Under the pieces are notes generated by a model. The model was not told where the DNA came from. It did no database searches and saw only the letters and a list, made by a program, of their open reading frames with translations. Made by a program: the position numbers and the translations under genes. Positions 2,474 through 43,725 of a DNA stretch of 64,000 bases are shown here, one piece after another. Position 1 is the first letter of the stretch. Each line of letters starts with the position of its first letter. This DNA comes from Rhizobium leguminosarum (GTDB taxonomy: Bacteria; Pseudomonadota; Alphaproteobacteria; Rhizobiales; Rhizobiaceae), in NCBI RefSeq assembly GCF_017876795.1, contig NZ_JAGIOR010000001.1, positions 1,374,501 through 1,438,500 of the forward strand, read 5' to 3'.

Positions 2474-3475
2474 ATGGTTCCCTTCTCCATACTCGACCTT
2501 TCCCCCGTTGCCGAAGGCAGCAGCATCCGCCAGTCTCTCGAGAGCTCGGCGCGGATGGCCGGGAAGGCCGAGCAATTCGGCTACAAGCGCTTTTGGCTCG
2601 CCGAGCATCACGGCATGCCGGGGATCGCCAGCGCCGCCACTGCCGTCGTCATCGGCCATGTCGGGGCCGCAACAACGCGCATCCGCATCGGCTCCGGCGG
2701 TATCATGCTGCCCAATCATTCGCCGCTCGTCATTGCAGAGCAGTTCGGCACGCTCGAGGCGCTCTTCCCCGGCCGCATCGATCTCGGCCTCGGGCGCGCG
2801 CCGGGAACGGACATGCGCACGGCACAGGCGCTGCGGCGCAATCTCGAGGCCGGTGCGAACAGTTTCCCGAACGACGTGGTGGAACTGCAGCAACTCCTCG
2901 ATACGCCGGTCGAAAACCAGGCGATCCTTGCGGTCCCCGGCAATTCATCGCATATCCCGATCTGGCTGCTCGGCTCCAGCCTCTACAGTGCCCAGCTTGC
3001 TGCGATGCTCGGACTTCCCTATGCCTTCGCTTCGCATTTTGCGCCCGACATGCTGCTTGATGCGATCGCGATCTACCGCGACCGCTTCCAGCCCTCGTCG
3101 ACGCTCGACAAACCTTATGTGATGGTCGGCGTGATGGGCGCGGTGGCTGCGACCGACGAAGAGGCGCGGTACCATTTCACCTCCGCTGAGCAGCAGTTCG
3201 TCAATCTGCGCCGCAATGTCCGCGGCCCGTTCCCGCGCCCGTTGGCCGATATGGAAAATTTCTGGTCGCCGATGGAGAAGATGAACGTCGAACACACGCT
3301 GCGTTACGCCGTGGTCGGATCGCCGACGACGGCGGAGGCGAAACTGACGGAGTTTCTCAAGGAAACGCAGGCCGACGAGGTGATCATCTCGATGCCGATC
3401 CACGACATCGAAGCGCGGCTGACGTCGGTGGAACTGTTTGCGGGCTTGGGAAATTTCATGCGGGCCGCCGCGTAG
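2474..3475 (+). CDS. LLM-class flavin-dependent oxidoreductase
   Basis: Predicted FMN-dependent, luciferase-like monooxygenase, 333 aa. The TIM-barrel family pattern is clear: an N-terminal strand with [12 protein letters not shown], the RFWLAEHH motif near residues 43-50, [13 protein letters not shown], and [13 protein letters not shown]. This is the pattern of the YhbW-like group 1 subfamily; the substrate is unknown. I prefer the ATG at 2474 (MVPFSILDL) to the in-frame ATG at 2399, because the 25 extra residues do not resemble the family and homology begins at VPFSILDLS. It converges on yebC across a bidirectional terminator. Confidence 0.9.
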
Positions 3476-18741: not shown

Positions 18742-20223
18742 ATGTCTCCGGAAGCCCGATCGCCGCAAGAGGCGATCCTCCAGTTTCTCACCTCGCTTCA
18801 AAGCCCTGCACGCATTCTCGTCGCGATATCGGGCGGCAGCGATTCCACCGGCCTGCTTCTCCTCCTCGATGAAGCCGTGAAGGCCGCGCCTCATCTCAAA
18901 ATTTCCCTATGCGCTGCGACCGTCGACCATGCGTTGCGCGCCGGCTCCGCAGACGAGGCGCATGCAGTCGCAGCCCTCTGCACCTCGCGCGGCATTCCAC
19001 ACACTATCCCGACCTGGCAGGGCGACAAGCCGAAAACCGGCATCATGGCCGCGGCCCGCGAGGCGCGTTACGGCCTTCTGGCCGAAGCGGCGGAAGCGCT
19101 TGGCGCCGATCTCATCGTCACCGCCCATACACTCGACGACCAGCGCGAAACACTTGCCATGCGCGGCATGCGAACGGAGCAGGTTTCGACCGGCATTGCC
19201 GATGCGGTGCTCTTCAACCGGCATTTCTGGGTCCTGCGGCCGCTTCTCTTTTCCAGCCGGGCGGATATCCGCACTTTCCTCAGCGAGCGGGGCGTGCCGT
19301 GGATCGACGATCCGAGCAATGAGGATGTGAAGTACGAGCGCGTGCGGATCCGGCGGCGCCTTTCGACCGATGCAGGTCCTGAGAAAAATATCCCCAGGGC
19401 CTGGGAAGATCGACTGGCGCTTTCGGCCAAGGCCGCAGACTGGCTGGATCGTCACTTCAGGCTTCACGGCGGCCTGCTGGGGCAGGTGATGCCGGACGGG
19501 TTGCGGCAGGATCGGGCAGTCCTCGACTATGCGCTCGGCCGTCTGACAGCCGTTTTCGGCGGGCAGCCGTTTGCGCCGGGGAGGGCGCATATGGAGCGCC
19601 TTCTCTCATTTGCCAGCGGCAGCCAGCCGGGACGGATGACCGCCGGCAGGGTGGTGTTCGATCTCAGGCGTGACGGGCTTTATCTCACGCGCGAGAGCCG
19701 GGGGATCTTGCCGCTGGTGTTGCGGCCAGGAGAGGCGGGGGTTTGGGATGGGAGGTTCGAGGCAATAAACGGGTCTGGAACGACAGTAAAGATCGAGGGG
19801 CAGGCCGCCGCGCGCTCCTCCCTCATTCCTGTCCTCGGGCCTGACCCGAGGGATGTCACAGGAATCCAGCCACCGCGCGTCGGCGCGGTGAATGACCTTA
19901 CAACGCATGAAGAGTCTCCCGCGCCCAAGGACTTGGGCGCACTGGATTCCTGTGACGAGCACAGGAATGAGGGAGGATGGGGCGCGGGCCTGCCCAAGGC
20001 CGCGTGGAAGCGCGCCATCGCCTCGGCGCCGGTGTTATCCGCCGACGGAACCATTCTATCGCAGGAATCTGCGCCGACGATCGACCTAACGCCTTATTTC
20101 GCACCCTTCGACCGCTTTTTGACACGATTTGATTTCATCTTTGCTGACAGGCTTTCGGCGGTTTTCGCAACGGCGCCCTATCCGAGACCGCCTTTAAGAA
20201 GTATTGACGGAAAAACCATCTGA
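18742..20223 (+). CDS. tilS: tRNA(Ile)-lysidine synthase TilS with repeat insertion
   Basis: Adds lysine to C34 of tRNA-Ile2(CAU) so that it reads AUA; essential in most bacteria. The ATP-pyrophosphatase loop AISGGSDSTG is at residues 28-37, followed by TVDHALRAGSADEA and TAHTLDDQRET. The protein is 493 aa. Codons about 359-412 are made entirely of a palindromic repeat (19816-19977, exactly 162 bp), which inserts 54 residues in frame within the C-terminal region without breaking it. The inserted residues (PVLGPDPRDVTGIQPPRVG onward) do not look like TilS sequence. Confidence 0.93.
   Translation: MSPEARSPQEAILQFLTSLQSPARILVAISGGSDSTGLLLLLDEAVKAAPHLKISLCAATVDHALRAGSADEAHAVAALCTSRGIPHTIPTWQGDKPKTGIMAAAREARYGLLAEAAEALGADLIVTAHTLDDQRETLAMRGMRTEQVSTGIADAVLFNRHFWVLRPLLFSSRADIRTFLSERGVPWIDDPSNEDVKYERVRIRRRLSTDAGPEKNIPRAWEDRLALSAKAADWLDRHFRLHGGLLGQVMPDGLRQDRAVLDYALGRLTAVFGGQPFAPGRAHMERLLSFASGSQPGRMTAGRVVFDLRRDGLYLTRESRGILPLVLRPGEAGVWDGRFEAINGSGTTVKIEGQAAARSSLIPVLGPDPRDVTGIQPPRVGAVNDLTTHEESPAPKDLGALDSCDEHRNEGGWGAGLPKAAWKRAIASAPVLSADGTILSQESAPTIDLTPYFAPFDRFLTRFDFIFADRLSAVFATAPYPRPPLRSIDGKTI
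19816..19977. repeat. In-frame multi-hairpin palindromic repeat inside tilS
   Basis: The ends are a perfect 17-bp inverted repeat, TCCTCCCTCATTCCTGT (19816-19832) and its complement (19961-19977). Inside are three more hairpins: CCTCGGG/CCCGAGG (19833-19851), CACCGCGC/GCGCGGTG (19871-19890) and the 9-bp GCGCCCAAG/CTTGGGCGC (19921-19940), plus complementary TGTCACAGGAATCCAG and CTGGATTCCTGTGAC segments. It resembles the short palindromic elements usually found between rhizobial genes, but here it is coding. Its 162-bp length is a multiple of three. Confidence 0.85.
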
Positions 20224-25194: not shown

Positions 25195-25204
25195 CGGCGG
25201 CGGG

Positions 25205-25249
25205 ACACCCTTCCCCAACGAAGGGCTTTCTATCTGAGAGGATAGCATC
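25205..25249 (+). promoter_or_regulatory. Putative serC leader RNA motif
   Basis: Two tandem hairpins lie directly before serC: CCCTTC/GAAGGG (25208-25225) and CTATC/GATAG (25230-25245). The loop and 3' arm of the second contain GAGAGG, the probable serC ribosome site, so folding could hide it. A small conserved leader upstream of alphaproteobacterial serC (the serC motif) is known; position and layout fit, but I cannot run the covariance model. Confidence 0.55.
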
Positions 25250-26428
25250 ATGGCGAAGACCGCAAAGCCGGACATCCGTCCGCACAATACTCATTTTTCT
25301 TCTGGCCCCTGCTCGAAGCGCCCCGGTTGGTCGCTCGAGGCTCTTTCCGACGCGGCTCTTGGCCGTTCGCATCGCGCGAAGGTCGGCAAGGCCAAGCTCA
25401 AGCAGGCGATCGACCTTACCCGTGAAATTCTCGACGTGCCGGCGGATTATCGCATCGGCATCGTTCCGGCTTCCGATACTGGCGCCGTCGAAATGGCGCT
25501 CTGGTCGCTGCTCGGCGAACGCGGCGTCGACATGCTCGCCTGGGAAAGCTTCGGCGCCGGCTGGGTTACCGATGTCGTCAAGCAGCTGAAGCTCAAGGAT
25601 GTGCGCAAGCTCGAAGCCGGCTACGGCGAGCTTCCGGATCTCTCCGCCGTCGATTTCGACCGTGACGTGGTCTTCACCTGGAACGGCACCACCTCGGGCG
25701 TGCGCGTGCCGAACGCCGATTTCATCCCTGCCGATCGCAAGGGCCTGACGATCTGCGATGCGACTTCGGCCGCTTTCGCGCAGGAACTCGATTTCGCCAA
25801 GCTCGATGTCGTCACCTTCTCCTGGCAGAAGGTTCTGGGCGGCGAGGGTGCCCATGGCGTCATTATCCTTTCGCCGCGCGCCGTCGAGCGTCTGGTCACC
25901 TACACGCCGGCATGGCCGCTGCCAAAGATCTTCCGCATGACCTCTGGCGGCAAGCTCACAGAAGGCATCTTCCAGGGCGAGACGATCAACACGCCGTCGA
26001 TGCTCTGCGTCGAGGACTATATCGACGCGCTTGTCTGGGCCAAGGGCCTCGGCGGCCTCAAGGCACTGATTGCGCGCGCCGATGCCAATGCCAAAGTCAT
26101 TCATGACTTCGTCGCCGCCAACGATTGGATCGCCAATCTCGCCGTCAAGGCGGAAACGGCCTCCAACACCTCGGTCTGCCTGAAGATCATCGACAAGGAT
26201 ATCGCGGCCCTTGACGACGATGGTCAGGCGAATTTCGCCAAGGGCCTGGTCGGCCTGCTCGAAAAGGAAGGCGTCGCCTATGACGTCGGCCATTACCGCG
26301 ACGCGCCGTCCGGCCTGCGTATTTGGGCCGGCGCCACCATCGAGGCATCCGACATGCAGAAGCTGATGCCCTGGCTTTCCTGGGCCTTCGAAACGCAGAA
26401 GGCGCAGCTCGGCCAGGCTGCCACCTGA
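25250..26428 (+). CDS. serC: Phosphoserine aminotransferase
   Basis: PLP enzyme of the serine pathway, 392 aa, making 3-phosphoserine from 3-phosphohydroxypyruvate and glutamate. Motifs: [19 protein letters not shown] at the N-terminus, [13 protein letters not shown], and the PLP-lysine region [15 protein letters not shown]. The sequence belongs to the alphaproteobacterial/archaeal-type SerC group of about 390 residues. serA follows in the same direction 83 bases later, so the two consecutive steps share an operon. Confidence 0.95.
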
Positions 26429-43561: not shown

Positions 43562-43684
43562 CTTCGGCGTGCAGATATAACCGTGCTGTTGCGGGTTTGG
43601 AAGCCGGTGTAAATCCGGCACGGTCGCGCCGCTGTGACCAGCGTGTCGAAGGTTCTTCGCGCTGGAAGTCAGACCCTGCCGCAC
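43562..43684 (+). promoter_or_regulatory. Cobalamin riboswitch
   Basis: Conserved adenosylcobalamin-riboswitch elements appear in order: GTGCTGTTGCGGGTTTGGAA, then AGCCGGTGTAAATCCGGCAC, then GGTCGCGCCGCTGTGACC, and finally the B12 box GAAGTCAGACCCTGCC (43666-43681). cbtB starts about 40 bases later, so cobalamin should turn off cobalt uptake. Confidence 0.93.
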
Positions 43685-43725
43685 AAGCACTCTTTCGACT
43701 GAACGCGTCATTCCCGGAGGAATAC

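Follow-up and report, generated by a model that had tools for sequence, protein, structure and literature searches.

The stretch analysed here (the window, 64,000 nucleotides of Rhizobium leguminosarum DNA) comes from C1, a 5.09-Mb contig of a genome that comprises 7.58 Mb in nine contigs. An ORF of 493 codons in the window encodes the tRNA(Ile)-lysidine synthetase TilS, as indicated by matches to ATP_bind_3 (PF01171, E 3.1e-43) and lysidine_TilS_N (TIGR02432, E 1.2e-44). The top PDB structures found by Foldseek for a model of this protein were also TilS (3a2k, 1ni5, and 2e21), and its nearest named relatives were from Rhizobium. Among the matches listed for the window genome, one was a full-length TilS, and the remaining ones were to a repeat located inside the gene. 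The next ORF, which from inspection by eye we take to be ftsH, starts approximately 80-100 nt after the end of tilS. The features of the locus are as follows.

18742..20223, + strand: tilS, tRNA(Ile)-lysidine synthetase, 493 aa, host of the element (ORF, PF01171, TIGR02432, Foldseek)
19816..19977, + strand: REP-dimer element in F orientation, 162 bp, TilS residues 359-412 (inverted repeats, genomic copies, fold, shared site in relatives)
19816..19832, + strand: left terminal inverted repeat, 17 bp, perfect (sequence, repeat search)
19821..19869, + strand: left REP unit, CCTC-ATTCCTGT ... ACAGGAAT-CCAG (stem 19825-19832/19858-19865)
19871..19890, + strand: spacer hairpin 1, CACCGCGC / GCGCGGTG (repeat search)
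19921..19940, + strand: spacer hairpin 2, GCGCCCAAG / CTTGGGCGC (repeat search; stem pairing across copies)
19942..19972, - strand: right REP unit, minus-strand reading CCTC-ATTCCTGTG-CTCGT-CACAGGAAT-CCAG (sequence, unit pattern)
19961..19977, - strand: right terminal inverted repeat, 17 bp, perfect (sequence, repeat search)

An earlier note on this DNA had described a 162-bp element with perfect 17-bp ends and inner hairpins, lying wholly within tilS and adding 54 residues in frame. Both parts of this description were confirmed. Codon 359 starts at position 19816 and codon 412 ends at 19977, and the reading frame is kept. The ends are exact reverse complements, and the repeat search extended them to 40-nt arms that are 85% complementary. 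Four inner inverted repeats were found, one of 15 nt with 100% complementarity (19855-19869/19942-19956) and three others at 19871-19878/19883-19890, 19921-19929/19932-19940, and 19946-19954/19960-19968. In the window, the loop of the left REP unit is enlarged by an extra hairpin at 19834-19850, which is missing from alleles with a 132-nt core. The element RNA folded at -108.1 kcal/mol, compared with -57.4 kcal/mol (sd 4.05) for 200 shuffled sequences, giving a z score of -12.5.

CGTC REPs have been described as having a CGTC tag (or the variants TGTC and CCTC), an 8-9 bp stem that begins with AT, a loop of 4-5 nt, and a CCA tail; they lie mostly outside genes, with cases inside ORFs in several species, and according to the sections of the survey used here no dedicated transposase is known for them (PMC3733652). 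In both units of the element, the CCTC tag variant precedes the stem, and CCAG, corresponding to the CCA tail, follows it. The right unit, ATTCCTGTG-5 nt-CACAGGAAT, has a 9-bp AT-first stem and a 5-nt loop as in CGTC families 3-4, and other tilS alleles have 5-nt loops at the position of the left unit. The two units form an inverted pair with the tags pointing outward, and the spacer between them contains two hairpins 30 nt apart; the CGTC-3 dimers of A. tumefaciens also have two stem-loops in the spacer, with a reported value of 20-23 bp (PMC3733652). Judged by their sequence, the units fit CGTC families 3-4 as the survey describes them in words. The element most resembles CGTC-3, with which it shares the tag, stem, loop, tail, and two-stem-loop dimer spacer given in those sections (PMC3733652). 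The 17-bp ends also fall within the MITE range of 15-30 bp, which is a MITE-like feature.

The earlier note made other copies in the genome a test of whether the element is a dispersed repeat, and such copies were found. In the window genome, 19 BLAST matches, which we grouped into 12 places, were all located on contig C1, and the REP unit pattern occurred at 8 places with up to 2 mismatches. Within the window, the pattern with up to 3 mismatches occurred once, against a chance expectation of 0.00. Plasmid searches gave 1012 places in 183 records with the window element as query and 1324 places in 195 records with another copy as query, and nearly all of these records were from Rhizobium and Sinorhizobium. 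With the latter query, 48 of the 60 listed matches were annotated and a gene lay under none of the 48, and with the window element, the 40 listed matches comprised 34 without a gene, 1 in a hypothetical protein, and 5 unannotated; the gene table behind both counts is incomplete. A search of phages for the element gave no match. Copy number differed greatly between genomes, and some related genomes had more than 60 matches. No match to the transposase domain PF01797 (Y1_Tnp) was found in the window genome, and the control search was positive in 5 of 14 genomes. At one intergenic locus, a search for an empty site or target duplication returned diverged spacers only, with neither a clean site nor a duplication.

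We then surveyed the genes that contain a copy. A search with the peptide of the window orientation against proteins of approximately 270-860 aa found 42 proteins, namely 36 TilS, 1 unnamed protein, and 5 di-heme oxidoreductases (DHOR) that carry the peptide N-terminally. A search with the peptide of the opposite orientation found 24 TilS and 1 hypothetical protein (25 in all). Of the 83 copies that DNA similarity searches of four genomes provided, 26 were within an ORF of at least 120 aa. A Pfam scan of 20 element-spanning ORFs from 19 loci, picked mostly by length, found a domain on both sides of the element in none; 14 had no domain, and 4 CcmH, 1 DHOR, and 1 ribose-isomerase domain all lay after the element. 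In the partial surveys made, tilS thus appears to be almost the sole conserved gene with an internal copy. The earlier note also proposed that such elements can mobilise into coding DNA and create new protein segments. In the searches made, insertion into conserved genes looks rare, and selection on the amino acids of the new segment left no sign, as described below.

Several observations on the other hosts were made during this survey. The unnamed protein (P0121, 416 aa) is an ORF of four successive repeat copies with their spacers, in the same register as the tilS allele L063 described below. The DHOR copy was present in at least 4 of 50 genomes (L288-L291 in G071, G005, G019, and G065), and in a fifth, G061, the match began at query residue 25. 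Since this copy has a stop in one of the four genomes, a wrongly called start is likely, though it may also be a real N-terminal insert. Three element lengths, 129, 147, and 168, were all multiples of three, and two of them were recognised as DHOR by eye. At L216 (1506-1637), the element is flanked by two ORFs, of which the first, presumably ccmF as judged by eye, stops 20 nt before it. Copies before ccmH were also seen at L140, L147, L153, and L155.

The tilS site was compared in 49 named loci of the Rhizobium clade (L050-L098), with one genome per species in most of the collections used. F denotes the orientation of the window element and R the opposite one. Among sequenced strains, R. etli CFN 42 is of F type and R. 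johnstonii 3841 of R type. There were 9 full F alleles, 14 full R alleles, 1 R core in F flanks (L063), 6 partial F and 5 partial R alleles, 5 remnants, and 9 loci without a recognisable insert; the labels were assigned by hand, including F or R for L062, L063, L093, and L098, which an automatic orientation score left undecided. F alleles read SSLIPV...VTGIQPPRVGAVND. R alleles use the opposite strand and a different register, reading SPSFLCLSQESSAPKSLG...TRGGWIPVTSTGM, and in L063 the opposite strand is read in the F register. The distances to the fixed flanks were typically 60|18 nt in F and 59|16 or 19 in R. The left flank measured 57-63 nt in 8 of 10 F rows including the window and 72 nt in the other 2, and 59 nt in all 14 R rows. 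A rough regex sorting of 120 protein clusters gave 55 R2, 44 F, 1 R0, and 20 short or unparsed clusters, the last including 5 parse failures and P0023, which is F by eye.

The distance between the fixed flanks was 69-78 nt in six outgroup loci, compared with 204-252 nt in full-length alleles, and more distant Rhizobium TilS lacked the element. These data support the view of the earlier note that the segment was inserted. The clean 162-bp gap sought among near relatives was absent, however, because the site is filled in two orientations and at many lengths. As the occupied site extends over the R. leguminosarum/etli group and into some lineages beyond it, the idea of a private or recent 162-bp insertion was not upheld. 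Going by the sequences compared, the insert is a dispersed REP dimer that throughout the R. leguminosarum/etli group sits at a single site in the C-terminal part of the gene. It occurs in both orientations and in three registers, with the frame unbroken in the named loci examined.

In all 49 named loci, a single open frame joined the motifs on either side of the site, and the proteins had 417-500 aa. The lengths of the full tilS cores, measured between the repeat ends, were multiples of three in 25 of 25 cases, compared with 46 of 83 copies elsewhere (lengths modulo 3: 46/18/19, thus 37 not; Fisher p 5.9e-6, with related alleles that are not independent). The 83 control copies, which still favour higher-scoring matches, were the remainder of 90 loci after removal of 6 without both ends and 1 in tilS. 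Another control set, obtained by translated search, left out 9 loci without recognised ends and the overlapping loci of the window genome. It was dropped because frameshifted copies score lower in such a search, and the resulting ascertainment bias explains its 52 of 53 genomic copies in multiples of three. The corresponding lengths of the 49 site segments are also no evidence, because the segments were cut at codon borders. Forward frame 0 was open in 59% of the 83 copies, the other forward frames in 1% and 4%, and the reverse frames in 40%, 48%, and 29%. Many insertions would therefore be readable by chance.

We examined selection on the element using dN/dS. Values for the core were 0.71 in 10 F alleles and 0.99 in 14 R alleles, and tilS itself showed 0.19-0.20 before the element and 0.33-0.34 after it. 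Copies outside tilS, treated as if coding, gave 0.74-1.02. As the core values are like those of the outside copies, nothing indicates that the amino acids of the element matter, and core dN/dS of F and R alleles gave no sign of selection on them. The core dS was 0.14-0.18 compared with 0.52-0.56 for the gene body, approximately 3-4 times lower. The nucleotides are therefore constrained, homogenised, or younger than the gene, and have not simply drifted neutrally; the low dS may reflect structure, gene conversion, or younger age.

An AlphaFold2 model of TilS from 40 sequences had a mean pLDDT of 83.8. Residues 362-405 formed the only long stretch below 50, with short ones at 99-101 and 490-493. 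The ten-residue blocks flanking this stretch averaged 81 and 79, and the next blocks averaged 96 and 95. The model thus puts the element in a disordered loop, in agreement with the surface loop that the earlier note predicted for the inserted peptide.

The relationship between orientation and gene history was analysed with a tree of the 5' part of tilS, leaving out L089, L090, and L097, which have no recognisable insert. Neighbouring rows were often of different orientation. Orientation changed 10 times over 36 labelled tips, compared with a mean of 12.0 for shuffled labels, and 51 of 300 shuffles were as low. F as a single clade was rejected (p-AU 1.3e-5), although this group was chosen after the first tree had been seen. 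These results suggest that orientation hardly follows the 5' tilS tree. We next compared 11 pairs of near relatives with opposite types. Over the 48 nt left of the element, identity was 31-58% in 10 of the 11 and 73% in the remaining pair, which consists of two degraded alleles, and it was 80-91% in the 25 columns just before these 48 nt. Three pairs of the same type were 85-98% identical left of the element. Since left-flank identity follows orientation, a short stretch together with the element appears to behave as an exchangeable unit. After the element, opposite-type pairs were 56-97% identical over the next 12 codons, 55-99% over the following 28, and 82-99% in the last 39 columns; the last few columns before LPK were too short to count. 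Because identity after the element varies widely between pairs, the right border of the exchanged stretch is not sharp.

L063 has an inverted core in F geometry (60|18). Its left flank was 0.71-0.73 identical to L051-L053. Identity to R alleles averaged 0.43, and L057 and L058, although of F type, matched no better (0.42). It is the best case for inversion in place and is probably one, with separate insertion or conversion as other possible origins. In a poorly resolved tree based on few columns, the tilS cores mingled with genomic copies without forming a separate group, and for several of them the nearest match was a genomic copy (the window core was 0.90 identical to a copy in G071). As the tilS cores are not one group, they could stem from repeated insertion or gene conversion just as well as from one or two founding events.

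Taken together, these results quite probably reflect a REP dimer that is translated, tolerated, and neutral with respect to its amino acids. Selection on TilS would keep it in frame, and recombination would pass it between species. The translated element would form a disordered loop on the surface of TilS, which the enzyme tolerates, and selection would remove frameshifts and stops while ignoring the amino acids that the repeat encodes. Two old versions of flank and element, F and R, would have been exchanged between species by homologous recombination. Now and then, recombination between the inverted ends would flip the element where it lies, and the shortened forms would stem from deletions inside the palindrome. 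The prominence of tilS may be due to a tolerant loop combined with recombination among an old set of alleles. A further idea, which we regard as unlikely, is that recombination between the inverted ends acts as an orientation switch within a lineage, so that the two strands are alternative code for 42-59 residues of an essential enzyme and the often-open frames (forward 0 and reverse) make flips or insertions survivable.

The main competitor of exchange and inversion is that F and R arose from separate insertions at a repeat hotspot, which is perhaps still being hit. The mingling of F and R cores with genomic copies, the genomic nearest matches of several tilS cores, and the very different copy numbers between genomes would all fit such a history. 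Insertion alone, however, does not predict that the flank next to the element differs with orientation in near relatives, and the R position is fixed at 59 nt in 14 of 14 alleles; we consider separate insertions possible but doubtful. Alternatively, the element could act as RNA: a very stable hairpin of the tilS message, located ahead of the next gene, would pause ribosomes or be cut by an RNase and thereby tune output, the peptide being a by-product. The fold energy, the low core dS, and the closeness of the next ORF are consistent with this role, as is the pairing of the stems, with 97.8% of stem cells paired in 14 tilS copies and 99.0% in 66 genomic copies. Among the genomic copies, 6 of 33 stem pairs were changed on both sides, and one stem pair of spacer hairpin 1 was G-C in 35 of 66 and C-G in 30 of 66. 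Such two-sided changes numbered 0 of 33 in the tilS copies, however, and in many alleles half or almost the whole of the element is gone (L059, L062, L067, L069, L077, and L083) with the gene still open. Moreover, copies elsewhere share the structure, which therefore need not serve tilS, and we regard an RNA role as quite improbable.

Two further explanations concern the gene itself. If tilS were broken or read in two parts, the element could lie outside the working protein, and an apparent frameshift does occur in the related tilS of G007, though away from the element. The single open frame across the site in all named loci, the low dN/dS on both sides of the element, and the lone full-length TilS among the matches listed for the window genome argue against this. 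Lysidine at tRNA-Ile2 is, in addition, essential in the bacteria studied, and we regard a broken or split gene as very improbable. The segment might also be an ancestral part of TilS that merely resembles the repeat, in keeping with its long presence in the group. This is refuted by the empty outgroup loci, and the repeat is multicopy and was found in both orientations, leaving almost no probability for an ancestral origin.

To our knowledge, Rickettsia and some other genomes are the main source of palindromic repeats lying in frame within genes, and each case has usually been a single snapshot. The tilS site can be traced through dozens of alleles (empty, F, R, probably flipped, and shortened) in hosts that are free-living and easily grown. 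A mobile-looking repeat seems to have been turned here into a variable but tolerated protein loop. The system makes several open questions testable, including translation of the insert, the response of the enzyme, the movement of REPs without a known transposase, and the passage from a random repeat to accepted protein.

The likeness to Rickettsia palindromic elements suggested in the earlier note is apt, since RPE-4 and RPE-6 of R. conorii are members of the CGTC superfamily that the units fit (Di Nocera et al. 2013, PMC3733652). Like RPE-1, RPE-4, and RPE-6, the element is palindromic and lies in frame within a protein gene, and RPE-1 was reported within tRNA pseudouridine synthase B, another tRNA-modification gene (PMC3733652). 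Many genes are hit in Rickettsia, whereas nearly one gene was found in the searches made here, and the likeness is one of description. The full-length tilS cores encode 42-59 residues (126-177 nt), compared with 20-30 for over half of the inserts reported in the sections of the survey used here and 43-82 for clusters (PMC3733652). Unlike the CGTC-3 description there, the present analysis traces a single site, in tilS, across a genus, where it is filled in both orientations and read in three registers. REPs in recB of X. campestris and X. oryzae similarly lie at about one place in two related species, but gene and host differ from the tilS case (PMC3733652). The RIME and A, B, and C palindromes of Sinorhizobium are also dispersed palindromic repeats of rhizobia; unlike the tilS element, they are described as intergenic in the part of the source used for this comparison of descriptions (PMC2573895). 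A literature search, weak on subscription papers, found no paper on a repeat in rhizobial tilS.

Some minor observations were made in the window and in related genomes. In G007 (C1, 3349034-3350490), the tilS match is split into two overlapping pieces near codon 180, which is either a frameshift or a sequencing error. A second dispersed repeat of approximately 150-200 bp with many matches in related genomes was seen at L203 (approximately 2889-3091). In the window, a match to a cobalamin riboswitch barely above the cut-off was found at 43570-43712, and a match to the serC leader RNA was found at 25198-25250.
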